DNA of 21,013 nucleotides from a bacterium (GTDB taxonomy: Bacteria > JALSQH01): positions 1 through 21,013 of the forward strand of contig JALSQH010000008.1 in NCBI GenBank assembly GCA_026985515.1. The letters are read 5' to 3'. Shown here piece after piece: positions 1,177-21,013 of the stretch (the stretch's first letter is position 1; each line of letters opens with the position of its first letter). The position numbers were made by a program, and so were the translations under genes. A model generated the notes under the pieces. That model ran no database searches, was not told the origin of the DNA, and was given only the letters and a program-made list of their open reading frames with translations.

Positions 1177-1179
1177 AAA

Positions 1180-1476: not shown

Positions 1477-1491
1477 AAAGGGGAAAAGAAA

Positions 1492-2322: not shown

Positions 2323-2325
2323 AAA

Positions 2326-2607: not shown

Positions 2608-2618
2608 AGAGGGTTAAA

Positions 2619-2957: not shown

Positions 2958-2971
2958 GAAGGAGGTTTGTT

Positions 2972-3643: not shown

Positions 3644-3662
3644 TCTAAAAAGTGAGGAGCAG

Positions 3663-4285: not shown

Positions 4286-4554
4286 GTGAGAAAAAAATCC
4301 GGAGAAAAACATTTGTCGGTGTGGTTGTGAGTGACAAGATGGATAAAACGGTGGTGGTGCAGGTTGAAAGGCTCGTTCAGCATCCCAGGTTCAAGAAGTA
4401 TGTGAAAAAGAGAAAAAAGTATATGGCCCATGATGAGGAAAATAAATGCAGAGTGGGGGATAAAGTCCTCATTAGGGAAACAAGACCCCTCAGCAGACAT
4501 AAAAGGTGGAGAGTTGTAGAGATACTTGAGAGAAGAGTAAAAGAAGGTGAATAA
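4282..4554 (+). CDS. rpsQ: Small subunit ribosomal protein S17 (uS17)
   Basis: S17 is a primary 16S rRNA binding OB-fold protein of the 30S body. The 90 residues contain the family motifs [36 protein letters not shown], with the DKMDKTVVV block diagnostic, followed by [40 protein letters not shown]. Start overlaps the rpmC stop by four bases (ATGA) without a strong SD. A short 23-bp spacer separates it from rplN. Confidence 0.96.
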
Positions 4555-4577
4555 AATCCCAGGCAGGAGAAGCTAAG

Positions 4578-4946
4578 ATGATCCAGATGGAAACGATACT
4601 CGATGTGGCTGATAATTCAGGTGCCAGAAAGGTGAAGTGCATAAGGGTGCTTGGAGCCTCCAATAGAAGATATGCTTCACTGGGTGATGTTATTGTGGCT
4701 TCAGTTGTTGATGTAGCACCTGGTTCCAAAGTGAAAAAGGGTGATGTTGTGCGAGCTGTGGTGGTCAGGACAAGGAAGGAAGTGAGAAGACCAGATGGTA
4801 CCTATATCAGATTTGATACGAATTCTGCGGTCCTGATAAATAAACAGAATGAACCTATTGGAACCCGTATTTTTGGCCCCGTAGCGAGAGAGTTGAGGGC
4901 GAAAAACTTCATGAAAATCATTTCCCTGGCGCCGGAGGTGCTTTAA
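4578..4946 (+). CDS. rplN: Large subunit ribosomal protein L14 (uL14)
   Basis: L14 forms inter-subunit bridges and is the binding site of the silencing factor RsfS. The 122-residue protein is the exact family length and begins [18 protein letters not shown], followed by [38 protein letters not shown] and a normal C-terminus ending in [10 protein letters not shown]. An AGGAGA ribosome binding site lies eight to nine bases upstream. The family N-terminal MIQ supports the ATG at 4578 over the one three codons later. Confidence 0.97.
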
Positions 4947-4947
4947 G

Positions 4948-5295
4948 ATGGCAAATAAGAAGAAAAAGAGGGTAAAGCTGCATGTAAAAAAGGGTGATCT
5001 GGTTCAGGTTATCGCTGGAAAGGATAAGGGTAAGAGGGGTAGAATTAAAAAGGTTTTCCCCTCTGAGATGAGGGTAATAGTTGAGAAAGTTAACATGGTA
5101 AAGAAACACCAGAGGCCCACTGATAAATATCCTCAGGGTGGAATTATTGAAAAGGAAGCGTCAATTCATGTTTCCAATGTTATGATAGTTTGTGAAAATT
5201 GTGGCAGACCGGTCAGAACAAGGAAGAAGATTCTCCCGGATGGTACCAAAGTAAGGGTTTGCGTCAGGTGCGGAGAAATTCTCGACAGGACATAA
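4948..5295 (+). CDS. rplX: Large subunit ribosomal protein L24 (uL24) with zinc ribbon
   Basis: L24 is an assembly initiator that binds the 5' end of 23S rRNA through a KOW domain. The 115-residue protein has the KOW motif ([22 protein letters not shown], about residues 15-36) and a C-terminal ribbon with C82, C85, C105 and C108 in a C-x2-C...C-x2-C arrangement that can bind zinc. Many bacterial L24 proteins have this ribbon and others have lost the cysteines; here all four are retained. GGAGGT inside the rplN end serves as its SD. Confidence 0.96.
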
Positions 5296-5310
5296 TGGAG
5301 GATGAATAAA

Positions 5311-5856
5311 ATGGTCCCCAGATTAAAAAAATATTATTATGAAACCGTTGTGCCTGAAATGATGAAAGAGTTTGGTTATAAGAACATCATGGAGGTACCC
5401 CGTCTTGTGAAAATAGTGGTGAATATGGGGCTTGGAGAGGCGATTCATGATGGTAAGCTTTTAGACGCAATGAGTGAAGACCTTGCCCTCATCACTGGAC
5501 AAAAACCCGTAATTACAAGGGCGAGAAAATCAATATCCAATTTTAAATTGAGGGAGGGTATGGCTATTGGTTTAAAGGTTACTCTCAGAAGAGATTATAT
5601 GTGGGAATTCTACGACAGGCTTGTGAATGTTGCTCTCCCGAGAACGAGGGATTTCAGGGGAGTATCCCCCAGGGCATTTGATGGACATGGAAACTATACT
5701 CTTGGAATAAGAGAACATATTATTTTCCCTGAAATCAATTATGATAAGGTGTACAAGATAAAGGGAATGAATATAACCATTGTGACATCAGCGGAGACTG
5801 ATGAAGAGGCGAAAGCCCTTCTTGATAAACTTGGTATGCCTTTTAGAAGAAGTTAA
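5311..5856 (+). CDS. rplE: Large subunit ribosomal protein L5 (uL5)
   Basis: L5 binds 5S rRNA and the P-site tRNA elbow in the central protuberance. I chose the ATG at 5311 (181 residues, [20 protein letters not shown]) rather than the in-frame ATG at 5302. GGAGG at 5297-5301 abuts the earlier ATG with no spacer but is nine bases before the later one. Family members also begin MVPRLK. The [34 protein letters not shown] and [24 protein letters not shown] blocks are present. Confidence 0.95.
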
Positions 5857-5868
5857 AGGAGGTTTAAC

Positions 5869-6054
5869 TTGGCGAGGAAAGCACTGGTAGTTAAGGCTCA
5901 GAGGGAACCTAAATTTAAGGTCAGGAAGTACAACAGGTGTCCCATCTGCGGTAGGCCGAGGGGATATTTGAGGGATTTTGGAATGTGCAGAATTTGTTTC
6001 AGAAAGTATGCATCAAGGGGATTGATCCCCGGAGTACGCAAGGCAAGCTGGTAG
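5869..6054 (+). CDS. rpsN: Small subunit ribosomal protein S14, zinc-binding short form (uS14), TTG start
   Basis: S14 is a 30S head protein. This is the short, 61-residue zinc form (type Z), with C24-x2-C27 and C40-x2-C43 and the [14 protein letters not shown]-terminus typical of that form. The start is TTG preceded by AAAGGAGGT with ideal spacing (GGAGG 5858-5862, six bases before TTG). There is no usable upstream ATG. The zinc form indicates no need for the cysteine-free paralogue at this locus. Confidence 0.96.
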
Positions 6055-6063
6055 GAGGATGCT

Positions 6064-6477
6064 ATGGTAACGGATCCAATAGCTGATATGCTTACAATAA
6101 TAAGAAATGGTTTGCAGGCAAGGAAAAAGGATGTTGTTGTTCCTGCATCAAACTTAAAAAGGGCAATCCTTCAGATTCTGAAGGATGAGGGATATATTGA
6201 GGATTTTCAGGAGTTCTCTGTACCAACAAGAAAGGGCGAGCAGGGGAAAAAACTCAGATTTCAGATTTTCCTCAAATACTTTAACGGGAAGCCGGTTATT
6301 GCTCACATTGAAAGACTCAGCAAGCCTGGAAGAAGGGTTTATGTTTCTGTTGATGAGATTCCCAGAGTGAGAAATGGACTTGGAATTGCTATTTTATCCA
6401 CATCAAAGGGAGTTATGACTGATAAGCAGGCAAGGAAAGAGAGAGTTGGTGGTGAATTACTCTGTATAGTGTGGTAA
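6064..6477 (+). CDS. rpsH: Small subunit ribosomal protein S8 (uS8)
   Basis: S8 is a primary 16S rRNA binder of the 30S platform and, in E. coli, the translational repressor of the spc operon. The 137 residues begin with [20 protein letters not shown] and end with the diagnostic block [31 protein letters not shown], including the STSxG motif. The middle segment (about 50-75) is slightly longer than in E. coli, accounting for a few extra residues. TAGGAGG overlaps the rpsN stop and serves as the SD. Confidence 0.97.
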
Positions 6478-6491
6478 ACAGGAGATAAAAA

Positions 6492-7061
6492 ATGGCAAGA
6501 TATGGGAAAATACCTGTGAAAATTCCTGAGAAGGTTAATGTAACAGTTGAGGGAAGATTGATAAAAGTGAAGGGTCCCAAAGGTGAATTGTCCTGGGAGC
6601 ATCCGGAAGGAGTCAATGTTGTGGTTGATAATGGGGAGGTCCGGGTAAAGATCAATGATGAGAGAAATAAACAGTTGCTTGCATATCAGGGTTTAACAAG
6701 GAGCCTTATCAATAACATGGTTAAAGGAGTAACGGAGGGTTTTGTAAAAGAACTTTACCTTGTTGGTACGATTTACAATGCACAGATGAGGGGAAGGAAA
6801 CTTGTAATGTCCCTTGGGTATTCCCATCCTGTTGAGTATGAACCTCCGCAGGGAATTGAACTGGAAGTGGAACCGGCTCAATTTTCCATTAATAATCAGA
6901 AGGTTATGATAATCAGAGTTAAGGGAATTGATAAACAACTTGTGGGTCAGGTAGCGGCAATCATAAGAGGATTCAGGGAACCGGATAATTACAAGGGCAA
7001 AGGTATCAGATATAGTGATGAAAGGTTGATTCTGAAGGAAGGCAAGAAGTCGAAAAAATAG
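6492..7061 (+). CDS. rplF: Large subunit ribosomal protein L6 (uL6)
   Basis: L6 sits near the sarcin-ricin loop and the factor-binding site. The 189-residue protein has two repeated L6 domains. The first opens with ARYGKIPVKIPEKVNV and contains VKGPKGELS. The second contains LSLGYSHPVEYEPPQGIELEVE-like elements and the conserved end DNYKGKGIRYSDE followed by a basic tail. It is about ten residues longer than usual because of that Lys-rich tail. AGGAGAT is a clear SD. Confidence 0.96.
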   Translation: MARYGKIPVKIPEKVNVTVEGRLIKVKGPKGELSWEHPEGVNVVVDNGEVRVKINDERNKQLLAYQGLTRSLINNMVKGVTEGFVKELYLVGTIYNAQMRGRKLVMSLGYSHPVEYEPPQGIELEVEPAQFSINNQKVMIIRVKGIDKQLVGQVAAIIRGFREPDNYKGKGIRYSDERLILKEGKKSKK

Positions 7062-7073
7062 TGAGGTTGTAAG

Positions 7074-7442
7074 ATGCTGAGCAAGAAGGAAAGAAAAAAT
7101 AAGAGATTGAGAAGGAAGATCAGAATCAGAAAGAAGATCAGGGGTACTGCTGAAAGACCAAGGCTTACAGTTTATAAGAGTCTGAAGTATATTTATGCTC
7201 AGATCATCAATGATGAAGAGGGCAGAACCCTTGTTTCAGCATCCACCCTGGAAAAGGATTTAAGGGAGAAGCTACCCTCCACCAAAGATATTAATGCGGC
7301 CAGAGTGGTGGGAGAGCTGATAACGAAAAGGGCGCTGGAAAAGGGAATTGAAAAGGTCGTTTTTGACAGAAATGGTTACAAATATCATGGCAGGGTAAAA
7401 GCTCTTGCAGATGCTGCAAGAGAGGCTGGTTTAAAGTTTTAA
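7074..7442 (+). CDS. rplR: Large subunit ribosomal protein L18 (uL18)
   Basis: L18 carries 5S rRNA into the central protuberance together with L5. The 122 residues have the basic N-terminal arm ([22 protein letters not shown]), [33 protein letters not shown], and the C-terminal [28 protein letters not shown], all diagnostic. The ATG at 7074 is preceded by a weak GTGAGG. Length and context are normal. Confidence 0.96.
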
Positions 7443-7458
7443 GAGGAGGTGACTGAAA

Positions 7459-7962
7459 TTGGCTTTTGAAAGGTTGAGAGAGGATGAGTGGATAGAGAAA
7501 ACTGTTCAGATAAGAAGAGTAGCGAAGGTTGTTGCCGGCGGTCGTAGATTTAATTTTTCTGTTCTCGTGGTGGTTGGTGATGGTAAAGGAAGGGTTGGTG
7601 TTGGGCTTGGAAAGGCAAGACAGGTTCCTGATGCGGTGAGGAAGGCTGTGGCAGATGCGAAGAAGAATATAATCGAGGTTCCCATTATAAATGATACCAT
7701 TCCCCATGAGGTCATCGGGCATTTCAAGGCAAGCAAGGTTCTGCTAAAGCCCGCCAGTCCAGGTACAGGAGTTATAGCAGGAAGCACAGTGCGTGCAGTT
7801 GTTGAGGCAGCAGGAATAAAGAATATACTTACCAAAAGCCTGGGATCCAACAATCCCCAGAATCTTGTTAAAGCTGTTATTGATGGATTTTTGCAGCTGG
7901 AATCACCGGAGTATGTTGCAAAGAAAAGAGGTAAAAAGGTTGAGGAAATTTTAGGGGAATAG
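7459..7962 (+). CDS. rpsE: Small subunit ribosomal protein S5 (uS5), TTG start
   Basis: S5 lines the mRNA entry tunnel and affects decoding accuracy. The 167-residue protein has an N-terminal double-stranded RNA binding-like domain (about 8-75, with [30 protein letters not shown]) and a C-terminal ribosomal S5 domain ([19 protein letters not shown], then [22 protein letters not shown]). Translation must begin at TTG 7459, preceded by AGGAGGT with GGAGG nine bases upstream. Only nine bases separate it from rplO, leaving no space for rpmD. Confidence 0.96.
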
Positions 7963-7971
7963 GAGGATTAA

Positions 7972-8421
7972 ATGGAACTCTATGAATTAAGGCCGTTTCC
8001 CGGTTCAAGGCATAAAAGAAAGAGAGTTGGGAGGGGAGAGTCTTCCGGCTGGGGAAAGACGGCTGGAAGGGGACACAAGGGTCAGAATGCACGGTCGGGA
8101 GGTGGAGTTCCACCTGATTTTGAAGGTGGTCAGATGCCTTTAAAAAGGAGACTCCCCAAATTTGGGTTCAGTAATGCTCTTTTCAGGAAGGAATATGCTG
8201 AAGTGAATGTTGAGAAGCTTAACAGATTTGAAGATGGGACAGTCGTTGATCCCGAACTTCTTCTGCAGACAGGAATTGTTAAAAAGATGAAGGATGGTAT
8301 CAAGATCCTTGGAAAGGGAGAACTGAAGAGGAAACTCACAGTAAAGGCACACAAATTTTCAAAAGGTGCCAGGGAGAAAATTTTATCTGCAGGTGGTAGC
8401 ATAGAGGAGATCCAGCAGTAA
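7972..8421 (+). CDS. rplO: Large subunit ribosomal protein L15 (uL15)
   Basis: L15 is a late 50S assembly protein whose extended N-terminus threads through 23S rRNA. The 149-residue protein shows the expected Gly/Arg/Lys-rich N-terminal arm ([22 protein letters not shown], then [25 protein letters not shown]) and a C-terminal globular domain ending in [19 protein letters not shown] precedes the ATG. The stop overlaps secY by one base (TAATG). Confidence 0.96.
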
Positions 8422-9734
8422 TGCTCGGGAATATTGATTCTCTCGGAAAAGTTCCTGAATTGAGAAAGAGGATCTTTTTTACCCTTTTAATGCTTGCCGT
8501 TTACAGAATAGGTGTTTTCATTCCTACCCCCGGTGTTAATACGCAGGCTCTCATGAGTTTTTTCCAGAGGGCCCAGGGAACTCTTTTCGGAATGATAAAT
8601 CTCTTCTCAGGTGGTGCAATAAGCAGATTCTCTGTTACAGCTCTTGGTGTTATGCCCTACATCAGTGCCGCCATAATATTGGAGGTACTTACAGTTGTTA
8701 TACCAGCTCTCGATCAGCTAAAAAAACAGGGTGAGCTTGGAAGGAAGAAGATAACACAATATACCAGGTATCTCACAGTTGCCCTTGCCTTTTTTCAGGG
8801 ACTTGGAATAGCATATGGACTTGAGGGGATGAGAGGTCCGGGAGGAGAAGTAATAGTCCTCTATCCGGGTTGGGGGTTCAGAATTTTCACTGCGCTTATC
8901 CTTGCCACCGGCAGTACTTTTCTCATGTGGTTGGGTGAGCAGATAACTGAGCGTGGTATAGGTAATGGTATCTCCCTTTTAATTTACGCTGGTATTGTTG
9001 TGCGACTCCCGGCTGCTATAGGCAGTACGATTCAGCTGATGAAGGTTGGCGAACTTTCCCTTTTCACTGTTCTTTTCATACTTATCCTTGCTTCTGTAGT
9101 TGTATGGTTTATAGTGTTTATGGAAACAGCTCAGAGGAGATTACCCGTTCAGTATGCAAGGAGGGTAGTTGGCAGGAAGGTTTATGGAGGTACAAGTACC
9201 CACCTTCCTTTAAAAGTTAACACTGCAGGTGTTATTCCTCCCATCTTTGCCAGTTCATTGCTGATGTTTCCACTGACTGTGACGAATTTCATCAGGACAC
9301 CCTTTACAGAGTCTGTCAAGTACTACTTTTCACCTGGAACATTCTGGTATGAAATTGCATATGTTGGGTTAATTATTTTCTTTGCATATTTTTACACCGC
9401 CATTCAGTTCAATCCGGTTGATGTTGCTGATAATCTCAAAAAGTGGGGTGGATACATTCCTGGAATAAGACCGGGGAATCAGACAGCAGAATATATTGAC
9501 AGAGTTCTCTCCAGGATAACCCTTATTGGAGCTCTTTATGTTGCAGCAGTTTGTGTTCTTCCCACAATTCTTATCAAAAGATTTAATGTTCCCTTTTACT
9601 TTGGTGGTACATCTCTTTTAATCGCTGTTGAAGTTGCCCTCGATACAATGCAGCAGATACAGGCTCATCTTGTGAGCAGGTACTATGAGGGATTTCTTGG
9701 TAAGGGTGCCAGAATTAGAGGAAGGCGTTACTGA
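8421..9734 (+). CDS. secY: Protein translocase channel subunit SecY
   Basis: SecY is the membrane channel of the general secretion pathway, partnering SecE, SecG and SecA. The 437 residues give about ten hydrophobic segments (near 18-37, 72-94, 117-136, 154-171, 182-202, 213-236, 270-290, 311-330, 366-384 and 392-412). The signature EQITERGIGNGISLLIYAGI lies at 173-192. The cytoplasmic RRLPVQYARR loop that binds SecA or ribosomes is at 239-248, and PGNQTAEYIDRVLSRIT is at 351-367. The start overlaps the rplO stop by one base, so synthesis is coupled to a ribosomal protein, as in most bacteria. Confidence 0.97.
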   Translation: MLGNIDSLGKVPELRKRIFFTLLMLAVYRIGVFIPTPGVNTQALMSFFQRAQGTLFGMINLFSGGAISRFSVTALGVMPYISAAIILEVLTVVIPALDQLKKQGELGRKKITQYTRYLTVALAFFQGLGIAYGLEGMRGPGGEVIVLYPGWGFRIFTALILATGSTFLMWLGEQITERGIGNGISLLIYAGIVVRLPAAIGSTIQLMKVGELSLFTVLFILILASVVVWFIVFMETAQRRLPVQYARRVVGRKVYGGTSTHLPLKVNTAGVIPPIFASSLLMFPLTVTNFIRTPFTESVKYYFSPGTFWYEIAYVGLIIFFAYFYTAIQFNPVDVADNLKKWGGYIPGIRPGNQTAEYIDRVLSRITLIGALYVAAVCVLPTILIKRFNVPFYFGGTSLLIAVEVALDTMQQIQAHLVSRYYEGFLGKGARIRGRRY

Positions 9735-9755
9735 GAATTTAAAAAGGAGAAGGTT

Positions 9756-10403
9756 ATGAACCTTATTTTTCTTGGACCTCCTGGCGCTGGTAAGGGAACC
9801 CAGGCGAAGAAGCTTGTGCAGTTACTTGGAATTCCCCAGATATCAACAGGTGATATTTTAAGGGCAAAGAAGGAGGAGGATTCACCTCTCGGGAGGCAGA
9901 TTAGAGAAATTATGGCTGAAGGTAAGCTTGTGCCTGATGAAATTGTGGTGGAAATAGTTAAGGAAAGATTATCGCAGCCTGATTGTGAGAAGGGTTTTAT
10001 TCTTGATGGTTTTCCAAGAACTATACCTCAGGCGGAGGCTCTTGATGAGGTGCTGAAGGAAATGGGAAGAAAGATAGATGCTGTGGTTTACATTGAAGTC
10101 CCGGAGGAGGAGCTTATAAAGAGAATAAGTGGAAGAAGGGTCTGTGAAAAGTGTGGTGAAGAGTATCATGTTATTTTTAAACCTCCGAAGGTGGAAGGTG
10201 TATGTGATAAATGTGGAGGGAGGTTGATTCAGAGGGAGGATGATAAAGAGGAAGTGGTGAGGAAGCGAATCGAGGTTTATAACAATTCCACAGCGCCGCT
10301 GATAGAGTATTACGAGGAGAGGGGTCTTTTGAAGAGGATTGACGGAGTTGCCTCAATGGAAGAGGTCTTTGCCAGGATAAAGAAAGCCCTCGGGATAAAT
10401 TGA
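9756..10403 (+). CDS. adk: Adenylate kinase with zinc-binding lid
   Basis: Adenylate kinase converts AMP and ATP reversibly to two ADP in the cytosol. The 215 residues contain the P-loop GPPGAGKGT (7-15), the AMP-binding TGDILR (31-36), the FILDGFPRT signature (81-89) and a long lid with C130, C133, C150 and C153, the four-cysteine zinc set typical of Gram-positive and many thermophile enzymes. A strong AAAGGAG precedes the ATG. Its TGA stop overlaps the map start by one base. Location after secY is standard. Confidence 0.97.
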   Translation: MNLIFLGPPGAGKGTQAKKLVQLLGIPQISTGDILRAKKEEDSPLGRQIREIMAEGKLVPDEIVVEIVKERLSQPDCEKGFILDGFPRTIPQAEALDEVLKEMGRKIDAVVYIEVPEEELIKRISGRRVCEKCGEEYHVIFKPPKVEGVCDKCGGRLIQREDDKEEVVRKRIEVYNNSTAPLIEYYEERGLLKRIDGVASMEEVFARIKKALGIN

Positions 10404-11155
10404 TGGGGATCAATTTAAAAAGCAAGCGTGAAATTGAGATAATGAGGGATGCTAACAGAATAGTGGCTGAAATTCTGTTGGATTTGAAAGAAAGAGTGAA
10501 GGAGGGGGTTACCACAGCTGAACTTGACAGAAGAGCGGAGGAACTCGCCGGGAAATATGGTGCTGAACCTGCATTTAAGGGATATATGGGATATCCAGCT
10601 TCTCTCTGTGTCTCGATTAATGAGGAGATTGTGCATGGTATTCCCTCAGAAGAGAGAGTAATTAAAAATGGAGATATTGTGAGTCTCGATTTTGGGGTTA
10701 TTTACAAAGGGTATTATGGTGACGCGGCTCTGACCGTGGGAGTGGGAAATATTTCTGAAACGGCGAAGAAATTGATGGAAGTGACTGAAAAGGCTCTTTA
10801 CATAGGGATAGAGGAGGCTGTACCCGGTAATCATATTGGTGATATTGGTTTTGCTATTCAAAATTTTGTGGAGAAAAATGGTTTTAATGTGGTGAGGGAA
10901 TTTACAGGACATGGAATAGGTAAAAAACTTCACGAAGAGCCGTATGTGCCCAATTATGGAACAAGGGGAAGTGGGCCCCTTATAAGAGAGGGGTTAACCA
11001 TAGCAATTGAGCCAATGGTCACTGAAGGCACCTGGAAGGTGAAGATACTTAAGGATGGCTGGACTGCTGTCACCGCAGATGGGAAACTCGCCGCTCATTT
11101 TGAGCATACGATTGCTGTTACTTCAAGCGGACCGGAAATTTTGAGTAGAGTATGA
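10403..11155 (+). CDS. map: Methionine aminopeptidase, type I
   Basis: This enzyme removes the initiator methionine from nascent proteins. The 250 residues have the pita-bread fold motifs and all five metal ligands: D96, D107, H170, E203 and E234. The substrate-binding His79 is in the IVHGIP motif. There is no N-terminal extension, so it is the short type Ia form. I set the start at ATG 10403, overlapping the adk stop (TGATG). A TTG at 10400 is in frame but would only add one Met and has worse context. A 57-bp gap with a promoter follows. Confidence 0.96.
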   Translation: MGINLKSKREIEIMRDANRIVAEILLDLKERVKEGVTTAELDRRAEELAGKYGAEPAFKGYMGYPASLCVSINEEIVHGIPSEERVIKNGDIVSLDFGVIYKGYYGDAALTVGVGNISETAKKLMEVTEKALYIGIEEAVPGNHIGDIGFAIQNFVEKNGFNVVREFTGHGIGKKLHEEPYVPNYGTRGSGPLIREGLTIAIEPMVTEGTWKVKILKDGWTAVTADGKLAAHFEHTIAVTSSGPEILSRV

Positions 11156-11156
11156 T

Positions 11157-11185
11157 TTGCAGGAAGAAAGCAGGTATGGTAAAAT
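11157..11185 (+). promoter_or_regulatory. Predicted sigma-70-type promoter upstream of infA
   Basis: TTGCAG at 11157-11162 and TAAAAT at 11180-11185 are separated by exactly 17 bases. TGG directly before the -10 gives an extended -10 element. It sits in the only sizeable gap of the ribosomal cluster, just after the map stop and 27 bases before the infA ATG. It could drive the alpha-operon part (infA through rplQ) separately from secY-adk-map. This is inferred from consensus match and position only. Confidence 0.55.
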
Positions 11186-11212
11186 TATTTTCAAAAAACA
11201 AAAGGGTATTTT

Positions 11213-11449
11213 ATGCCAAAAAAACAGCCTAAATCAATAGAAGTAACGGGAGAGGTACTTGAATTGTTACCAAATGCAATGTTTAAGGTAAAACTTGAAA
11301 CGGGTCATGTTATACTTGCCCATATTTCGGGGAAAATGAGGATGCATTACATAAAGATAATTCCTGGTGATAAGGTCAGGGTTGAAATTTCACCTTATGA
11401 TCTCACCAGGGGAAGAATAACCTACAGGTTAAAAGGAGATCAGAAATGA
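11213..11449 (+). CDS. infA: Translation initiation factor IF-1
   Basis: IF-1 is an OB-fold factor that blocks the 30S A site during initiation. The 78 residues match the family ([61 protein letters not shown] is spread over residues 9-68, with the PNAMFKV and YDLTRGRI blocks diagnostic). It has a few extra N-terminal residues (MPKKQPKS) before the usual start. The SD is weak (AAAGGG). The stop overlaps the rpmJ start (ATGA). Confidence 0.96.
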
Positions 11450-11559
11450 AGGTAAGTGCATCTGTAAAGAGAAGGTGTGAGAAGTGCAAGATTGTCAGGA
11501 GAAAAGGAAGGATATATGTAATTTGTGAGAATCCCCGTCATAAACAGAGACAGGGGTAA
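11446..11559 (+). CDS. rpmJ: Large subunit ribosomal protein L36 (bL36), zinc form
   Basis: This gene encodes 37 residues beginning [15 protein letters not shown] and ending NPRHKQRQG. That is the usual L36 length, and the zinc ligands C11, C14, C27 and H32 are intact. L36 binds 23S rRNA near the L6-L16 region late in assembly. The ATG overlaps the infA stop in an ATGA motif, with AAAAGGAGAT before it as SD. The infA-rpmJ-rpsM order is standard. Because it is so short it is easily missed, but the cysteine-histidine pattern and position make it secure. Confidence 0.95.
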
Positions 11560-11570
11560 GGAGGATCGGA

Positions 11571-11951
11571 ATGCCAAGAATTGCAGGTGTTGATATTCCA
11601 AAGAACAAAAAAATCTTTATAAGTCTTACCTACATCTATGGTATAGGTAAAACCACATCGCTTGAAATTCTTAAGAAGGCAGATGTTGACCCGGATAAAA
11701 GAGCTGGTGAACTTACTGCTGAAGAGGTGCAGAGGATAAGAAAGGTGATTGATGAAGGATACAAGGTGGAAGGTGCTCTCAGAGCTGAGGTGCAGAGAAA
11801 CATAAAGAGACTTATGGATATTAAGGCTTACAGGGGTCTCAGACATATAAGAGGCCTTCCTGTCAGGGGACAGAGAACCCATTCCAATGCAAGGACAAGA
11901 AAGGGTCCAAGAAACAAACTGAGCACAAAGAAAAAGAAAAAAGAGAAATAG
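11571..11951 (+). CDS. rpsM: Small subunit ribosomal protein S13 (uS13)
   Basis: S13 is a 30S head protein touching P-site tRNA and forming bridges with L5 and L31. The 126 residues begin [26 protein letters not shown] and include the [27 protein letters not shown] block before a Lys-rich tail ending in KKKKEK. AAGGAGGAT lies before the ATG. Just eleven bases follow rpmJ, so there is no room for the leader structure that E. coli uses for S4 repression. Confidence 0.97.
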
Positions 11952-11965
11952 TGTGGAGGTAGTTG

Positions 11966-12358
11966 ATGGCGACAAGAAGGAGAACAGGAAAGAAGAAAAA
12001 GGCGAAAAAGGGTATAACAGAGGGATACATATACATTCATGCCACTTTCAACAATACTATTGTGACTGTTACCGATCCAAAGGGAAATGTGATAGCCTGG
12101 TCATCGGGTGGAGTCGTGGGCTTTAAAGGTGCAAGAAAAGGAACTCCTTATGCGGCTCAGCTGGCTGCTGAAGATGCTGTGAAGAAAGCCATGGCAATGG
12201 GGTTGAAGAGAGCTGGAATCCTGGTTAAGGGACCTGGTCCCGGTAGAGAAAGTGCTCTTCGAGCAATTGGGATGAGCGGGATTCAGGTCACATTGATTAA
12301 AGATATAACACCCATTCCTCACGATGGGTGCAGGCCACCAAAAAGAAGAAGAGTATAA
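11966..12358 (+). CDS. rpsK: Small subunit ribosomal protein S11 (uS11)
   Basis: S11 is a 30S platform protein near the mRNA exit. The 130 residues show the basic N-terminus ([15 protein letters not shown]), [54 protein letters not shown] and the C-terminal CRPPKRRRV. The residue before the C-terminal Gly-Cys is Asp120, where E. coli encodes an Asn that matures to isoaspartate; see findings. ATG 11966 is preferred over the TTG one codon earlier, with GGAGG at 11955-11959. Confidence 0.96.
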
Positions 12359-12370
12359 AGGAGGAATCCT

Positions 12371-13003
12371 GTGGGAAGGTATACCGGTCCAGTTTGCAGA
12401 TTGTGCAGGCGCGAAGGAGTAAAATTATACTTAAAGGGGGAGAAATGTTACTCACCCAGCTGTCCCTTTGAGAAGAGACCTTATCCCCCTGGACAGCATG
12501 GTAGAAGTATCAGACCAAGACCCACTGACTACTGGCTCAGGTTGAGGGAGAAACAGAAAGCCAGAAGGATATACGGGGTCAGTGAGAAACAGTTCAAAAA
12601 ATATTATGAGATGGCTGATAGAATGAAAGGTGTAACAGGTGAAAATCTACTTATTCTGCTGGAACGCAGACTCGACAATGTTGTTTACAGAATGGGGTTT
12701 GCAGTCTCAAGGAGGCAGGCGAGACAGCTTGTGGTTCACAGACATTTTAAGGTTAACGGTAGAGTTGTGGACAAGCCTTCTTATCTTGTAAAGCCCGGAG
12801 ATATCATAGAGGTCAAAGAAGAGAGCAGGAATGTTGAGTTGTTTAAAGAAAATCTTGAAAGGGCCCAGGAGAGAGGTTTTCCACACTGGGTTGAGGTGGA
12901 CCCTGAAGCATTGAGAGGTAAATTTGTTACATATCCTGCAAGGGAAGATCTCAGGGCACCGGAAATTAAGGAACAGCTTATTGTTGAGTTTTACTCAAGA
13001 TAA
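12371..13003 (+). CDS. rpsD: Small subunit ribosomal protein S4 (uS4), zinc form, GTG start
   Basis: S4 initiates 30S body assembly. The 210 residues begin [12 protein letters not shown] and carry the zinc cluster C9, C12, C26 and C31, followed by RPYPPGQHG. The S4 RNA-binding domain lies at about 98-160, with [34 protein letters not shown] spread over that region. GTG is the start codon, preceded by AAGGAGG (GGAGG 12360-12364) six bases upstream. In E. coli S4 represses the alpha operon; no target structure is obvious here. Confidence 0.96.
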
Positions 13004-13024
13004 AAATCCCCGGGAGGATAGTAT

Positions 13025-14038
13025 ATGTACGATATTGAAAAATTCTGGGAATCTTTTATTAAGCCGGCCAGGATCCTGTACAATATTTCCAATCTCACAG
13101 ACAGTTATGGTAAGTTTTATGTTGAGCCGTTTGAGAGAGGTTATGGTGTAACTATTGGTAATTCATTGAGAAGAGTCCTCCTCTCCTCTATTCCTGGGGC
13201 TGCCATTGTTGCCATTAAGGTAGAGGGTGTTCTGCATGAGTTTACCAGTCTTCCTGGTGTGGTGGAAGATATTCCTGACATAATTCTTAATCTGAAAAGT
13301 ATAAGAGTGGCCATTCAGTCTGAAGATGAGGTTGTGGAAGGTTCCCTGGAGGCTGAAGGGGAAAGGGAAATTAAGGCAGGTGACCTCAAGTTTCCAGAAA
13401 GTGTCAAAATCCTCACTCCCGATGTGCACATTGCCACTTTGTCTTCCAATGGGAAACTCAATATGCGGCTGTGGGTAATGAGAGGTAAGGGATATCTTCC
13501 TGCGGAGAGAGTAAAAGAGAAATTTATAGAGCCTCCAATTGACATGATTTTCCTTGATGCTGATTTCTCTCCAGTGAGAAAGGTGGCTTATCACATTACC
13601 AATGCGAGGGTGGGAAGGATATCAGATTATGACAGGCTCAATATTGAAATATTGACTGATGGAAGTGTAAATCCAAAAGAGGCCTTAAATTACGCTGCAC
13701 AGCTTCTGATCAAGCATTTTGAAATATTCAGTAAGATTGAGCCTGAAAAGCAGGAAGAGGAGAAGAAGGAACCGGAGGTGGACCCAGTTTTTTATACTCC
13801 TATTGAGGAATTTAAATTTCCTGAAAGGGCAATGAATTGTTTGAGAAACGAGAATATAAAGTATCTTGGTGATCTTGTACAGAAGACTGAATCTGAACTG
13901 ATGGGAATAAAGAACCTTGGTGAGAAAACCCTGAAGGAAATTAAGGAGATCCTGGAAAGCCATGGTTTTCATCTGGGAATGAAGATAGAGGGCTGGAAGC
14001 GTCCTGAAGAGAAGAAAGGAGTTGGAGATGAGACATAG
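13025..14038 (+). CDS. rpoA: RNA polymerase alpha subunit
   Basis: The alpha dimer nucleates RNA polymerase assembly, and its C-terminal domain binds UP elements and activators. The 337 residues contain the N-terminal domain (about 15-235: [44 protein letters not shown]), an acidic Lys/Glu-rich linker (240-257), and the C-terminal domain (258-320). Arg268 in FPERAMNCL aligns with E. coli Arg265, the key UP-element contact, so UP-element recognition should be kept. The end overlaps rplQ by 11 bases. CGGGAGG is the SD. Confidence 0.97.
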
Positions 14039-14561
14039 AAAGGATCACAGCAAGCTAAACAGAGACAGGGATCACAGGAAGGCATTGATGAGGAATCTGT
14101 TGAGGGCTCTCTTTACTCATGAGAAGATTGTGACCACTGTGCCAAAAGCCAAGGAACTGAGAAGACATTCAGATAAACTGATAACTCTGGGGAAAAGGGG
14201 GGATCTCCACGCGAGAAGGCTTGCGCTTGCAATTTTACCTGATAAAAAGCTTGTAAAGAAAATTTTTGATGAACTTGCTCCAAGATATAAAAACAGACCT
14301 GGAGGATACACCAGGGTATTGAGGTACAGAAACAGAAGAGGCGATAATGCTCCACTGGCAGTAGTGGAACTTGTGCAGGAAGAGTTAAAGATAAGAGTGA
14401 GGAAGAAAAAGATTCAGGAGGAAAGGGAAAAGTTAGAGGCGGAGGAAGAGAAGAAGAAAGAGGAAATTCAGGAGGTTAAGGAAGAGGTTAAAGCTGAAAC
14501 TCAGGAAGAAGCTTCCGTTGAAAGGCAGGAGGAACAGGAAAATAAGGAAGAGGGGAATTAA
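14028..14561 (+). CDS. rplQ: Large subunit ribosomal protein L17 (bL17) with long charged C-terminal tail
   Basis: L17 sits beside L22 and L32 near the tunnel exit. I use ATG 14028 (177 residues, [24 protein letters not shown]) because it matches the family start and has AAAGGAG six bases upstream; TTG 14022 is in frame but inferior. The core (1 to about 120) is typical, with [10 protein letters not shown] near 90-99. Residues about 121-177 are an extra tail dominated by Glu, Lys and Gln, probably helical or disordered. It overlaps rpoA by 11 bases, and its stop overlaps the convergent trpA stop. Confidence 0.95.
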
Positions 14562-14579
14562 TCCTTTATCCCCTCTTTT
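14546..14579. terminator. Predicted bidirectional intrinsic terminator across the rplQ/trpA stop codons
   Basis: AAGAGGGG (14548-14555) and CCCCTCTT (14570-14577) form an eight-base perfect stem, extendable by two G-U pairs, around a 14-base loop. Reading + the stem runs into TTTTA; reading - it is followed by CCTTATTTTC. Both stop codons (rplQ TAA 14559-14561, trpA TAA complementary to 14558-14560) lie in the loop, so each arm is coding sequence of one gene. The + direction looks better supported than the -. Confidence 0.6.
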
Positions 14580-15325
14580 ATCCAGTTTAACCAGTTTTTA
14601 ATGTCTTCTCCTTCTTCCAGTTTTTTTATCAGTGCTGAACCAATTATAAAGCCGTCCACGAGGTTTTTTATTGAAGTAAGCTGTTGGGGTCTGCTTATGC
14701 CGAAGCCAGCGGCAACTGGCTTATTTGTTTCTCTTTTCAGTCTCCTGAAAAGCTCAATACCTTCTGGAGGAATTTCGTCTCTTGCCCCTGTGGTACCTGT
14801 TCTGGTTACGGCATAGATGAAACCGGAAGATGCCTTTACAAGTTTTTTAAAGTATTCACCCTTAATGGTTGGTGGGATCAACATTGGTGTTACAATGCCG
14901 AGTGAATTGATTTTTCTGTAAAAATTTTCCCCTTCAATGAGAGGGAGATCAGGTATTATTATTCCGTCGATTCCGGACTTTTTCAGGTTTTCGATGTATT
15001 TGAAACCTTTTCTGGCGATGGGATTGTAATAACTCATTGTTATTAATGGGATATCTGGATGTTTTTTTCTTATCTCTGAAACTATTTCAAGATATTTTTC
15101 AGGTGTCATTCCTCTTTTCAGTGCCTCCTGGGACGCGAGTTCAATTACCGGACCATCAGCAACGGGATCGCTGAATGGCAATCCAATTTCAAGTATCTCA
15201 AATCCAGCTGATATCACTCTGTCAGCCCATTCCAGAGTGGTTTCATCATCCGGGTATCCGCAGGTGAGATAGCCAATAAAGATTTTTCCAGATCTTCTGA
15301 ATACCTCATCAACTCTGTTTTTCAT
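14558..15325 (-). CDS. trpA: Tryptophan synthase alpha subunit
   Basis: TrpA cleaves indole-3-glycerol phosphate to indole and glyceraldehyde 3-phosphate and channels indole to TrpB. The 255 residues form a TIM barrel with catalytic Glu46 ([10 protein letters not shown]) and Asp57 (PVADGP), plus [20 protein letters not shown] and [11 protein letters not shown] blocks near the phosphate site. The start overlaps the trpB end by 17 bases and is preceded by GGAGG inside trpB. It is the last gene of the operon and its stop codon overlaps that of rplQ on the other strand. Confidence 0.97.
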
Positions 15326-16490
15326 GAAGTGCCTCCATTATGGTTTCCATATCCTTGTCTCCCCTTCCGGAGATGTTGACCACTACGATGTCTTCCTGCC
15401 GGAATTCTCCTCTGTGTTTTAGCAGATACGCAACTGCGTGTGCTGATTCGAGAGCAGGTATGATTCCCTCGCTTTCTGCCAGAACTTTTACAGCCTCGAT
15501 AACTTCGGTATCGGTGGCTGATGATGCCTTTACCCTTCCCGAATAGACGAGATGGGCCAGTTCTGGCCCCACTCCAGGATAGTCGAGACCAGGAGCTATC
15601 GAGTGGACCTTTTTCACCTGTCCATTTTTGTCCTGAAGGAGCAGGGATCTGGTACCGTGAAGATATCCGGGTGTGCCAAGGTTGAGGGTTGCAGAATGAA
15701 GAGAATCAAGTCCTCTTCCCGCAGCTTCCACGCCTATCAGCCGTGTGTTTCTGTTTCTTATGAAGGCTGAAAATATGCCCATCGCATTGGATCCCCCTCC
15801 CACACAGGCAATGACATAGTCAGGATCTCTACCCTCAATTTTCCTTATCTGCTTTTTTGTCTCACTTCCAATGACTGACTGGAAAAATTTTACAATTGCT
15901 GGATAGGGATGGGGTCCAACAACAGAGCCAAGAAGGTAGTATGTGGTGGTCACATTCTCTGCCCATTCTCTCAGAGCCTCATTTATTGCGTCTTTCAGTG
16001 TTCCACTACCCTTGTTCACCGGTACAACCTTTGCCCCCAGGAGTTCCATTCTGAGAACATTCAACCTCTGGCGTTTAACATCTTCGCTGCCCATAAAGAT
16101 TTCGCATTCAAGGCCAATGTGAGCTGCAGCTGTGGCTGTGGCAACCCCATGCTGTCCCGCTCCTGTTTCTGCAATGATTCTCCTTTTCCCCATGTATTCA
16201 GCCAGCAGTGCCTGACCAATTGTATTATTGATCTTGTGGGCGCCAGTGTGAGCCAGATCCTCTCTTTTAAGATAGATTTTTGCTCCGATGATTTTTGAGA
16301 GCCGTGGTGCGTATGTGAGGGGAGTGGGTCTGCCAGCGTATTCCTTCAGCAATTTTCTGTATCTTTTAAGGAATTCACTATCTCTTTTTGCCCTGATGAA
16401 GGCACTTTCTAATTCCTCTAAAATGGGAATAAAGAGTTCAGGTATGTAGACTCCGCCAAAACTCCCGTAGTATCTCTTCAATCTGAACAT
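15309..16490 (-). CDS. trpB: Tryptophan synthase beta subunit (TrpB1 type)
   Basis: TrpB condenses indole with serine to make tryptophan using PLP. The 393 residues carry the PLP lysine K86 in HTGAHKINN, the catalytic Glu108 in AETGAGQHG and the phosphate-binding GGGSNAMG (231-238). The N-terminus ([21 protein letters not shown]) is that of the classical TrpA-dependent enzyme, rather than the longer TrpB2 form. The start overlaps trpF by 13 bases with AAAGGAGG directly upstream. It is adjacent to trpA as usual. Confidence 0.97.
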
Positions 16491-17107
16491 GCTCCCTCCT
16501 TTATTTTTGTGGAAATTTCCCGTAATTTTACCGGATCTTTTTTACCCGGCTCCATTTCCACCCCACTGTTAAAGTCAAGCCCGAAGGGTTTGAAGATCCT
16601 CACCGCTTCGCAGAAATTGTCTGGATTCAGGCCTCCAGCTATGATAATGGGAAAGTCCAGTTTCGCAAGGAAGGAAAATTTTTCCCATTCAAATCTTCTT
16701 CCGCTTCCCCCGTAGCTCTTTGAAGGAGTGTCAACCAGAATGGCAAATAGGGGCAGATTTATGTATTCTTCAATTCTTTTCTGCAGATTTTCATCTGCGT
16801 GTAAAGCCTTTATTACTGTTTGTGGGGGGAGTTTTTTTATGTACTCTGCTGGTTCGTCACCGTGAAGCTGGATCAGGTCAAGGTTTACCTCTCTGTAGAT
16901 TTCAACCACTTTCCCGGGGTTTTCATTTACAAAAATTCCCACTTTTTTAATCCTGGTTGCTTTTGAAATCTTTTTTGCCTCTTCAGGTGGTATGTATCTT
17001 TTACTCCCGGGGTAGAAATTGAGGCCAATGGCATTGAATCCAAGTTTTTCCACAAGTTTTGCGTCTTCAATTGATTTTATGCCACACACTTTAATCCACA
17101 ACTGCAT
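16478..17107 (-). CDS. trpF: Phosphoribosylanthranilate isomerase
   Basis: TrpF performs the Amadori rearrangement of phosphoribosylanthranilate to CdRP. The 209-residue TIM barrel has the general-base Cys8 in KVCGI, the general-acid Asp126 in [14 protein letters not shown] at 78-85, and phosphate-binding [10 protein letters not shown] near the C-terminus. It is a separate gene, not fused to trpC as in E. coli. The start overlaps trpC by 17 bases with GTGAGGG about nine bases before it. The TGA stop lies inside trpB. Confidence 0.96.
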
Positions 17108-17852
17108 TTTTCAATTCCCTCACCTTTTCTTCCAGATTTTCACTTTTAAGAATGGATGTTCCCACAAGAAAACCCATTACACCTTTTTCTCTGAGGAGCC
17201 TGATATCCTCCGTCTTTTCAATGCCGCTTTCACTTACCACTGTTATTCCCTGGGGAATGTGGTCGATGAGGTTTATGGTGGTGGAAATGTCAACTCTGAA
17301 GGTTTTCAGATCCCTGTTGTTTATGCCTATCATAACTGGGTCAATACTGAGTGCCTTCTCAATATCCTCCTTTGTGTGAGCTTCAACGAGCGCCTTCATT
17401 CCCAGGCTGTTCACAGCATCGTGGAGTTTTTCAAGTTCCTTTTCATTGAGTGCGGTGGCAATGAGAAGAACGATATCTGCTCCAAGGCTATAAGCCATTT
17501 CCACCTGCCATTCATCCACAACAAATTCCTTGAAAAGGATTGGAATTTCGGTCCTTAAGGCTATTTCCCTCACCCAGCATGGATTACCAGAGAAGTATTT
17601 TCGATCCACCACCACAGATATTGCATCAGCCCCACCTCTGATGTAAAGCTGAGCCATTTCGATGGGGTCAATTTCTCTGATTTTACCGGCTGATGGAGAG
17701 GCGGCTTTAATTTCGGCGATGAGAAAGGGGTGATCTGGTGGAAAGGGAATAACTTCCCTGGGTCTTGAATCTTTCGTGAGTTTTCCGAATTCCTTTTTGA
17801 GTTCTTTAATCTCGGATCTCTTGTGAGAAACTATTTCATCAAGAATACCCAT
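17091..17852 (-). CDS. trpC: Indole-3-glycerol phosphate synthase
   Basis: TrpC cyclises and decarboxylates CdRP to indole-3-glycerol phosphate. The 253-residue barrel has the catalytic residues in their usual motifs: Glu47 and Lys49 (AEIKAASPSAG), Lys108 (LFKEFVVD), Glu157 (ALVEAHT), Asn178 (GINNRDLKTF) and Ser207 with Ser209 (VSESGI). It is a stand-alone enzyme. The start overlaps trpD by 14 bases, and GGAGG lies upstream inside trpD. Confidence 0.97.
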   Translation of the reverse strand: MGILDEIVSHKRSEIKELKKEFGKLTKDSRPREVIPFPPDHPFLIAEIKAASPSAGKIREIDPIEMAQLYIRGGADAISVVVDRKYFSGNPCWVREIALRTEIPILFKEFVVDEWQVEMAYSLGADIVLLIATALNEKELEKLHDAVNSLGMKALVEAHTKEDIEKALSIDPVMIGINNRDLKTFRVDISTTINLIDHIPQGITVVSESGIEKTEDIRLLREKGVMGFLVGTSILKSENLEEKVRELKNAVVD

Positions 17853-18891
17853 TTTTTACTTCCTCCATCTGGGAAAAACCTACTAACTGGTTCAGCTTTT
17901 CAAGTGGTTTTAATGATTCAAGGACTTTTTTCGCCTCACTGATTCCTTCGGAAATGTCATTTCCATTTTTCAATGCGAAGAGGACACCTGCGTTGAGAAT
18001 TACAGTGTCAATTGCTACCTGAGGAGCTTCTCCTCTGAAGATCTTTTTTATCAGCTCTGCACTTTCATCTGGGTTTTTAACTTTTATTTTCTCCCTTTCC
18101 TTTTCATCGTGCTTTAAACCAAAGTCTTCCGGTTTTATTACTCTTTCTTCAGTTCCTGTTTCGTTAAAAAATATAATTCTGGTGGGAGCAAATGGTGATA
18201 CTTCATCCATTCCATCATAGCTGGAGAATACAGCACCTCTCCTTGTTCCCATTTCCCTCAATGCAGAGGAGATGGTATCGATGTATGATGGAGAGAACAC
18301 CCCCATTGAGTGGTATGATACGGGTCCCGCAGGATTTACAAGCGGTCCAATAATATTAAAGATTGTTCTGAATCCAAGTTTCTGCCTCACCGGCGCCACG
18401 GCTTTCATGGCTGGATGGAAGAATGGTGCAAAGAGGAAGGTTATTCCTATTTTCTTGAGGGCCTCCTCTGCTCTCTGCGGAGTGAGGTTCTTTATGTTTA
18501 CCCCGAGAGAGACCAGAACATCTGCAGATCCGGAGGCACTGGTTATTGATCTGTTGCCATGTTTGGCGACTTTGAAACCTCCAGCTGCTGCAAGAAAGGA
18601 AACTGCTGTGGAAATGTTGAAGGTTCCCGAATTATCTCCTCCTGTTCCACATGTATCGGCAAGTTTGTCTTTCTCATCGCACTCAACTTTTACCATCTTT
18701 TCCCTCAGTGCCTCTGCAACACCAAGTACTTCATTGAGTGATTCCCCTTTTATTCTGAGGGCGGTGAGGAAAGCCGCTGTTTGCACCGGGTCTATCTCCC
18801 CGTTGAGGACAGAAAGGATAAAGTTTTTAATTTCCTCTCTTTCGATTTCTTCGCCATTTATCAGTGAATTAATCAGCGTTTTGTAGCCCAT
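17839..18891 (-). CDS. trpD: Anthranilate phosphoribosyltransferase
   Basis: TrpD joins anthranilate to PRPP. The 350 residues contain DTCGTGGDNSGTFNIST (79-95, PRPP loop), KHGNRSITSASGSADVL (110-126, magnesium and anthranilate channel) and the second metal site Asp229-Glu230 in YDGMDE. The usual HG pair just before that DE motif is replaced by SS-Tyr, a mild divergence from common family members. It is not fused to trpG. The start overlaps trpG by 23 bases with AAAAGGAGG just upstream, the strongest SD in the operon. Confidence 0.96.
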   Translation of the reverse strand: MGYKTLINSLINGEEIEREEIKNFILSVLNGEIDPVQTAAFLTALRIKGESLNEVLGVAEALREKMVKVECDEKDKLADTCGTGGDNSGTFNISTAVSFLAAAGGFKVAKHGNRSITSASGSADVLVSLGVNIKNLTPQRAEEALKKIGITFLFAPFFHPAMKAVAPVRQKLGFRTIFNIIGPLVNPAGPVSYHSMGVFSPSYIDTISSALREMGTRRGAVFSSYDGMDEVSPFAPTRIIFFNETGTEERVIKPEDFGLKHDEKEREKIKVKNPDESAELIKKIFRGEAPQVAIDTVILNAGVLFALKNGNDISEGISEAKKVLESLKPLEKLNQLVGFSQMEEVKNGYS

Positions 18892-19474
18892 TGCTTCCTC
18901 CTTTTACAATTTCTGTGAAGTTTCTTATGATTTTTTTACCTTCAGGTGTGAGGACAGACTCTGGATGAAACTGAATCCCGTATGCGGGATATGTGCGGTG
19001 TCGCACCGCCATTATTTCATCATCATCTTCAGATCTTGCAAGGATTTCCATTGATTCGGGGATCGCATCTGCCACGAGGGAATGATATCTGCCCCCATCA
19101 AATACTTCTGGAATTTCCCTGAATATGGTATCACTCTTTATGATCCTGATTTTTGACACCTTTCCATGCATTATTCTTTTTGCCCTTCTGATTGTGGCAC
19201 CGAAGGCGAATGATAGTATCTGATGACCGAGGCATATTCCCAGGATGGGAGTCTTTTCAGAAAAGCGTTTCACAATTTCAACCACACCGGGATAATCTTC
19301 AGGATGTCCCGGACCGGGAGATATGATAATGGCTTCAGGGGAGAGTTGTATAATTTTTGCAGGTGTGATTACATTTGTTCTGAGAACCAGAAGATTTTCC
19401 TCTCCAATTATTTCTCCAAGGTACTGGTAGAGATTGTAGACAAATGAATCGAAATTATCTATTATCAGATACAT
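18869..19474 (-). CDS. trpG: Anthranilate synthase component II (glutamine amidotransferase)
   Basis: TrpG supplies ammonia from glutamine to TrpE. I set the start at ATG 19474 (201 residues, [15 protein letters not shown]), the family N-terminus. The frame stays open 123 bases upstream into trpE, but those residues match nothing expected, and GGGAGGA (19480-19486) lies five bases before this ATG. The class I amidotransferase triad is complete: Cys81 in GICLGHQ, His170 and Glu172 in FHPES. Position next to trpE argues for the tryptophan pathway, though a dual role with PabB is possible in some bacteria. Confidence 0.95.
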   Translation of the reverse strand: MYLIIDNFDSFVYNLYQYLGEIIGEENLLVLRTNVITPAKIIQLSPEAIIISPGPGHPEDYPGVVEIVKRFSEKTPILGICLGHQILSFAFGATIRRAKRIMHGKVSKIRIIKSDTIFREIPEVFDGGRYHSLVADAIPESMEILARSEDDDEIMAVRHRTYPAYGIQFHPESVLTPEGKKIIRNFTEIVKGGSNGLQNAD

Positions 19475-20867
19475 CTTCTTCCTCCCTGAGAGCTGATAGA
19501 AGTGCTTTTGCCTTGTTGAGGGTTTCCAGATATTCCTTTTCCGGCACAGAGTCATAAACGATTCCTGCACCTGCCTGAATGTATGCAGTTTCACCAATTT
19601 TCAGAATGGTTCTTATGGTTATGCATGTGTCGAGATTCCCGTTAAAATCCACATAGCCAATTGCTCCAGCGTAAGGGCCTCTTTTATCAGGTTCGAGTTC
19701 TTCAATGATTTCCATTGCTCTTATTTTGGGTGCACCAGAAACTGTTCCTGCCGGAAATGTGGATGTGAGAAGCATGAGAGGTGTAATGCCAGGTTTGAGG
19801 GTGGACACCACATCAGTGACGATGTGCATTACATGGGAGTAGTATTCCACCCTGAATGGATCAATAAGTTTCACGCTTCCTGCTCGTGAGACCTTTCCCA
19901 GATCATTCCTTGCCAGATCAACTAACATTACATGTTCTGCTCTCTCTTTGGGGTCATTAATGAGTTCTTCCTCAAGCATTCTATCTTCGACCGGATTGGA
20001 TCCCCTTGGTCGTGTCCCCGCAATGGGTCTTATCAGGGCCTTATCCCCTGCTTTTTTAACATGAACCTCTGGAGATGATCCTATGAGCTGATAATTCCCG
20101 TAGTTTAGGAGGAAGAGGTATGGGGAAGGATTGATGCGACGGAGCTTTCTGTAAATCTCAATGTAGTCCATCGTGGTCTGAACGGAAAGTCTCTGTGAGA
20201 GGACAACCTGAAATATGTCCCCCCTTTCTATATATTTTTTGGCTTTTTCCACAGCTGAGATAAATGCTTCCTTCGTCATGCTGGATCGGGGCGAAGAGGT
20301 TGTATGATGGTTGCCAGAGTGAGGAATTTTTGAGGAAGTTAGGGCGGTTGTAACTCTATCGAGTCTTTTTCTGATTTCCCCTGTTCTGCCTGATGGGGGT
20401 ATCACTCCCACAACTTTAAGTGTGTGATAGAGATGATCAAAGATCAGATAAACTGAAGGCGCTCTCAAATGAAAATAGGGTAAATTGAAGATGTCCTTTT
20501 TCAGATCAGGAATATCCTCAATGTATCTCACAAAGTCGTATGAAAAGAATCCCGCAGGACCCCCTGAATAGGGGAGATTCACCTGCTCGGTAGAGATTTT
20601 TTCCAGTGCTTCTTCAACGAGGGGAATGGGGTTGGAGGTTACAAACTCCTCTTCTGAGTCTTCAATTCTTAATCTGAGCAGTTTTCCTCTGGCTTCAACT
20701 TCAAACCATGGGTAAAAACCAATAAAGGAGTATCTTCCAAGTTCTTCCACCCTCGCTGAGCTTTCAAGGAGGAAAATGGGGTTCAGCTTTCTCAGTTTCA
20801 GGAGTGCAGATATTGGGGTTTCTATGTCTCCCGGCAGTTCTTTAATGATGTAGCCAATCTTTTTCAT
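19455..20867 (-). CDS. trpE: Anthranilate synthase component I
   Basis: TrpE converts chorismate to anthranilate with TrpG. The 470 residues have the N-terminal feedback-inhibition motif LLESS (33-37), so tryptophan inhibition is expected. The catalytic domain has PIAGTRPRG (281-289), HVMHIV and [11 protein letters not shown] (371-381). A Ser/Thr/His-rich patch (about 178-195) joins the two domains. I prefer ATG 20867, six bases after GGAGG (20878-20874), over the adjacent ATG 20870, which has only three. The gene follows a structured leader and overlaps trpG by 20 bases. Confidence 0.96.
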
Positions 20868-20883
20868 CATTTACCTCCTGCAT

Positions 20884-20918
20884 AAAAAAAGCCGCGGGTT
20901 TTTGTTAAAACCCGCGGC
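20884..20918 (-). terminator. Second leader terminator hairpin (T2), upstream of trpE
   Basis: On the - strand GCCGCGGGTTTT (20918-20907) pairs with AAAACCCGCGGC (20902-20891) to give a 12-bp perfect stem with a four-base AACA loop, followed by seven T (20890-20884). It is an ideal intrinsic terminator. It ends just before the trpE ribosome binding site, so it can only be useful if regulated. Confidence 0.85.
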
Positions 20919-20922
20919 CCAT

Positions 20923-20961
20923 AAAAAAAAGGGCCGCGGGGGATTGCCCCGCGGCCCTTTT
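20923..20961 (-). terminator. First leader terminator hairpin (T1), upstream of trpE
   Basis: On the - strand GGGCCGCGGGG (20957-20947) pairs with CCCCGCGGCCC (20941-20931) in an 11-bp all-GC stem with a CAATC loop, followed by eight T (20930-20923). Four A residues before the stem (20961-20958) can extend it against the first four T. It precedes T2 by a few bases and is one of two tandem terminators. Confidence 0.87.
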
Positions 20962-20979
20962 GCTTTCACGAACTACACC

Positions 20980-21012
20980 TCAGCCCCGGGGCAATCCTCC
21001 CATGTTGTTCCA
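20980..21012 (-). CDS. trpL: Possible 3' end of a trp leader peptide (partial)
   Basis: On the - strand one frame reads TGG AAC AAC ATG GGA GGA TTG CCC CGG GGC TGA, that is WNNMGGLPRG and a stop (TGA 20982-20980). The Trp codon at 21012-21010 is at the edge of the window, and the codons before it cannot be seen. If more Trp codons precede it, this would be the leader peptide. With one visible Trp codon and no visible start or ribosome binding site, it is a low-confidence call. Another frame stays open to a TGA at 20968-20966 and could be the end of an unrelated gene. Confidence 0.3.
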   Translation of the reverse strand, partial: WNNMGGLPRG

Positions 21013-21013
21013 C

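Follow-up and report, generated by a model that had tools for sequence, protein, structure and literature searches.

A putative ribosome-mediated transcription attenuator with two tandem terminators in the leader of a bacterial trpEGDCFBA operon

Leader-peptide attenuators of trp operons are classic regulatory systems, and comparative work on proteobacterial attenuators is said to have been presented by Vitreschak and colleagues in 2004. In E. coli trpL (Rfam RF00513, Trp_leader) a leader upstream of trpE carries a Trp codon upstream of an antiterminator strand, and the pairing of this strand excludes an intrinsic terminator. The leader described here resembles trpL in all of these respects, but it contains two terminators instead of one and its sequences are different. 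For Corynebacterium and Streptomyces, lineages other than that of the present DNA, trp attenuators with double or triple UGG codons, a GC-rich terminator with U-tract and an alternative antiterminator have been reported, and tandem terminators are not described in the part of that source drawn on here (PMC1262725). Two adjacent Rho-independent terminators are present in the leader-peptide attenuator erm(K) of Bacillus licheniformis (PMC4335068), which is similar to the present locus in its leader peptide and its terminator pair but senses a macrolide antibiotic and belongs to a resistance gene. No description of tandem-terminator trp leaders was found in a search of the open-access literature. 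Leader-peptide trp attenuators and two-terminator attenuators such as erm(K) are known; their combination at this locus is unmatched by Rfam Trp_leader.

The window, i.e. the whole analysed stretch of 21,013 nt, corresponds to the complete contig C8. According to the NCBIfam scan, trpE is the first gene of a trpEGDCFBA operon on the minus strand, and the leader is located directly upstream of this tryptophan biosynthesis gene on the same strand (Table 1). At the start of trpE, ATGATG comes after the Shine-Dalgarno site. A plus-strand cluster of ribosomal protein genes at 83-14561 (L3, L4 and further genes to SecY, adenylate kinase, a methionine aminopeptidase-like protein, S11, S4, RpoA and L17) is convergent with the trp operon (14558-20870), and the end of its last ORF, L17, shares 4 bases with the end of trpA. 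The contig edge at 21013 lies 143 nt upstream of trpE. The missing upstream part of the leader gave no match among the other contigs of the genome, and the search for leader-like sequence in the sister genome G001 gave no match outside the end of its trpE contig. In G001 (locus L004, contig C22) trpE is cut at about codon 9, and at the contig end unrelated sequence takes the place of its first codons, which is probably an assembly chimera. The trp leader is lost at a contig end in both members of the phylum, the genome of the window and G001.

Table 1. Positions of the leader elements and of the trp genes in the window.
Feature	Position	Strand	Basis
Putative leader ORF fragment, ..W-N-N-M-G-G-L-P-R-G-stop	20980..21012	-	Direct reading
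Segment A, upstream antiterminator strand, GGATTGCCCCGGGGC	20983..20997	-	Complementarity, shuffles, terminator ranking
Terminator T1, 15-bp stem, loop of 5, U-tract to 20923	20927..20961	-	-30.7 kcal/mol; terminator scan
Segment B, pairs with A, comprises T1 5' arm and loop	20941..20955	-	Complementarity, shuffles
Segment C, T1 3' arm, CCCGCGGCCC	20931..20940	-	10/10 complementary to segment D
Segment D, T2 5' arm, GGGCCGCGGG, sequence shared with T1 5' arm	20911..20920	-	Own-species C:D above cross-species C:D
Terminator T2, 14-bp stem, loop of 4, U-tract to 20884	20889..20920	-	-23.0 kcal/mol; terminator scan
trpE Shine-Dalgarno site, AGGAGG	20874..20879	-	Sequence
trpE, anthranilate synthase component I	19455..20870	-	TIGR00564, 525.7 bits, cut-off 517.7
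trpG-trpD-trpC-trpF-trpB-trpA, remainder of operon	14558..19597	-	NCBIfam scan

An earlier note on this DNA had proposed a simple attenuation switch in which GGATTGCCCC at 20997-20988 and GGGGCAATCC at 20950-20941 (minus strand) pair perfectly over ten bases and exclude T1. Both segments were verified at these positions, and the complementarity was found to extend to 14 of 15 Watson-Crick pairs with one G.G mismatch when A (20997-20983) is set against B (20955-20941). Since B comprises the 5' arm and the loop of T1, the predicted exclusion of T1 by this pairing is supported, and an antiterminator strand that pairs with the 5' arm of a terminator is present. The A:B duplex has an energy of -32.9 kcal/mol, compared to a shuffled mean of -16.4 (sd 2.7); when the 56 nt upstream were shuffled 20,000 times with dinucleotides preserved, no shuffle reached this value (shuffle minimum -30.1), and any exact 10-nt complement occurred in 5 of the 20,000. 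With the same program, the E. coli 2:3 pairing amounts to -12 to -14 kcal/mol, in contrast to about -33 for A:B. Stretches totalling 915 kb of the same genome were used as background for terminators, and among the 109 intrinsic terminators scored there A:B ranked first (-33.7 with slightly different arm limits; best other locus -26.0). A pairing beyond that of 20,000 shuffles and of the other terminators scored supports the attenuation switch.

Two intrinsic terminators precede trpE, and the U-tract of T2 stops about 5 nt ahead of the Shine-Dalgarno site. A scan of 20700-21013, which covered the sigma-70-like type only, revealed no sigma-70-like promoter. Because neither room for a promoter nor a sigma-70-like promoter is present after T2, trpE transcripts should have to pass at least T2. 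These observations bear on an alternative in which T1 and T2 end an upstream gene, the cut ORF being its 3' end, and a trpE promoter overlaps or follows the terminators. From the contig edge, each of the three frames runs open to a stop 20-40 nt ahead of T1, which is compatible with an ordinary gene end if the window is judged alone. However, the short distance from T2 to the Shine-Dalgarno site and the negative promoter scan leave little place for such a promoter, and the A:B complementarity is far above that of the other terminators of this genome. Tandem terminators are also rare, with only one other pair in the 915 kb of the same genome, and 14 of the 17 pairs in 2.07 Mb of fetched loci, a sample enriched for trpE loci, were located in trpE leaders. 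T1 and T2 are therefore unlikely to be ordinary terminators belonging to an upstream gene, and the alternative as a whole has only a very slight chance of being correct. Since the A:B statistics coincide with the position of T1 and T2 directly before trpE without promoter room, it is, as judged from sequence, nearly certain that the leader is a transcription attenuator of the trpE operon.

The putative leader ORF contains a Trp codon at 21012-21010 and an in-frame stop at 20982-20980. Its reading frame is cut by the contig edge at 21013, so that the start and further codons lie past the edge and a single Trp codon is visible. Chance would place one TGG within the appropriate range in approximately 18% of cases, so that a single codon is weak evidence by itself. 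For comparison, 159 trpE upstream regions were collected, all from other lineages, as the contig of the same-phylum genome G001 ends inside trpE. Many of them encode Trp-run leader peptides, and 15 of those have tandem terminators; 14 of the 15 were analysed, the remaining one being a near-duplicate. The analysed tandem leaders are L052 (Deltaproteobacteria bacterium ALJrbin.12), L012, L026, L238, L241-L244, L247, L257, L261, L262, L264 and L265. Each of the 14 has a complete leader ORF in which a start codon and a ribosome-binding site are present and two or more Trp codons lie shortly upstream of A, and the order Trp codons, A, T1, T2, trpE was found in 14 of 14. The last Trp codon is separated from A by 6-17 nt in these leaders (12-13 nt in the window), A from T1 by 16-55 nt (window 23) and T1 from T2 by 7-24 nt (window 10). 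The window shares with them this order and spacing as well as the common arms of T1 and T2, whereas they differ from it in their complete ORFs with 3-5 Trp codons, in a visible segment 1 and in a lower GC content of the arms. The local layout of L052 (W-C-V-C-G-G-V-C-P-L-P-G-E-stop) resembles that of the window. The geometry shared by the 14 complete leaders supports the earlier proposal of a leader peptide with a Trp codon just upstream of A.

The comparison with relatives that had been suggested as a check was here run on distant lineages, and complementarity and Trp codons were both kept. Own-species A:B pairing exceeded cross-species A:B pairing in all leaders taken together (0 of 20,000 permutations), and in seven dereplicated leaders the own pairing had the exact rank 1 of 5,040, or 1 of 720 without the window. 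The view that the switch uses three segments rather than the four of E. coli was not supported. In the 14 comparison leaders the stretch of Trp codons, which corresponds to E. coli segment 1, is able to pair with A at -11 to -26 kcal/mol and represents a fourth segment. Because this pairing occurs in complete leaders and the upstream part lies off the contig here, the three-segment appearance of the window probably just reflects the cut at the contig end.

Several other features were observed in the collected trpE regions. Loci L238, L241-L245, L247, L257, L261, L262, L264 and L265 combine WWW or WWWW leader peptides with tandem terminators, many of the type GCGCCGTGGATGCA..., and no Rfam match was obtained in the leaders of L241-L244, L247 and L257. 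Loci L240, L246, L248, L252, L253, L255, L256, L260, L263 and L266-L270 encode Trp-rich leader peptides followed mostly by a single terminator, whose arms read, for example, AACCCACT or AATCCCAC. Single and tandem terminators thus alternate inside a single bacterial group.

Searches with Rfam gave nothing at gathering score for the whole window and, for the leader at E values up to 10, just weak and mutually inconsistent hairpin matches. RF00513 Trp_leader matched neither the window nor twelve trpE loci of other lineages (of which eight belong to the 14 tandem leaders), and an E. coli control scored 93.1 bits with this model. The A:B switch might also be run by a T-box, a tryptophan riboswitch or a TRAP-like protein acting upstream of 21013. 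Any upstream ligand-binding part would fit, as the sensor region lies off the contig, and all of these systems make use of a strand that pairs alternatively with a terminator. However, the TRAP gene (mtrB, PF02081) was not found in the genome, which is 97.6% complete, although it was detected in the B. subtilis control. The best genome match to the T-box model RF00230 reached 14 bits against a cut-off of 93, segment A contains no UGGN-type T-box sequence, and no T-box match was obtained in the leader at E values up to 10, its upstream part being off the contig. The 14 leaders of the same layout, moreover, bear Trp-run leader peptides. Control by one of these sensors is accordingly regarded as very improbable. 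By analogy with these 14 complete trpE leaders, a ribosome-stall mechanism is likely.

In prefix folding of the leader transcript, A:B was predicted to form at emerged lengths of 68-83, before the 3' arm of T1 is complete, and A:B together with C:D at emerged lengths of 104-116, when D is out and the 3' arm of T2 is incomplete. The expected antiterminator was thus predicted while only B had emerged, but T1 and T2 were favoured at equilibrium. With a ribosome footprint to 20999, T1 was favoured (0.997) once its 3' arm was out, and for the full leader the energies were -67.1 kcal/mol for T1+T2, -65.6 for A:B+T2 and -62.6 for A:B+C:D, T2 being more stable than C:D. Since T1 is the preferred structure at equilibrium after completion of its 3' arm, readthrough would have to be kinetic. 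For E. coli trp attenuation, kinetic antitermination is the accepted view.

The best explanation, which we hold with high confidence, is that transcription of the trp operon is controlled by a ribosome-mediated attenuator whose two terminators are arranged in tandem. At low levels of Trp-tRNA, a ribosome on the Trp-containing leader peptide would stall at the Trp codons and leave segment A free, so that A could pair with B upon its emergence and T1 would be blocked. The freed 3' arm of T1 (C) may then capture the 5' arm of T2 (D) and delay or prevent the formation of T2, allowing the polymerase to proceed into trpE. With plentiful tryptophan, the ribosome would run to the stop codon at 20982 and cover A, and T1 and then T2 would form. 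Ribosome stalling, the masking of A and the kinetics are steps that we infer, and a disarming of T2 by C:D is the least certain element of the explanation.

Since the 5' arms of T1 and T2 share GGGCCGCGGG, a feature absent from the earlier note, the 3' arm of T1 can pair with the 5' arm of T2. Across 15 leaders, own C:D pairing exceeded cross-species C:D pairing (0 of 20,000 permutations reached it), and in seven dereplicated leaders it had the exact rank 1 of 5,040, or 1 of 720 without the window, whose share of the excess may be inflated by its GC content. The sequences thus give moderate support to a C:D pairing across species. The likeness of the arms may equally have arisen by duplication, in which case C:D would be functionless, the terminators independent and T2 a back-up. 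This would account for the similarity between the arms and is consistent with the thermodynamic preference for T2 over C:D and with an automatically compiled set (14 related leaders, window excluded), in which the C:D excess was weaker (reached by 186 of 5,000 permutations). Duplication alone does not, however, predict a greater strength of C:D than of the mirror pairing B:E, as was found in 12 of 15 leaders (Wilcoxon p 0.002; the sequences are partly related and not independent). In several leaders the 5' arms of T1 and T2 differ and yet C:D pairs fully (CGCCGTGGA versus CGCTGTGAA), and in the window two additional G residues of D find partners in C, their pairing within T2 being weak at best. 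We give this functionless duplication an even chance. A relay, in which A:B frees the 3' arm of T1 for the capture of the 5' arm of T2 and one stall would disarm both terminators, is proposed tentatively, with slightly less than even confidence. With similar reserve, the alternatives A:B plus C:D versus B:C plus D:E may constitute a recurrent variant of trp attenuation in several lineages that is absent from Rfam.

If the relay is true, it would account for the presence of two terminators with matching arms in attenuators, and the complementarity between the 3' arm of T1 and the 5' arm of T2 would provide a simple sequence rule to find tandem attenuators. The family of WWW or WWWW leaders with tandem terminators could become a new RNA family. 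The attenuator proposed here places a classic type of amino-acid control in a phylum represented in this study by two genomes, and its twin-terminator layout is common to the window and distant lineages.
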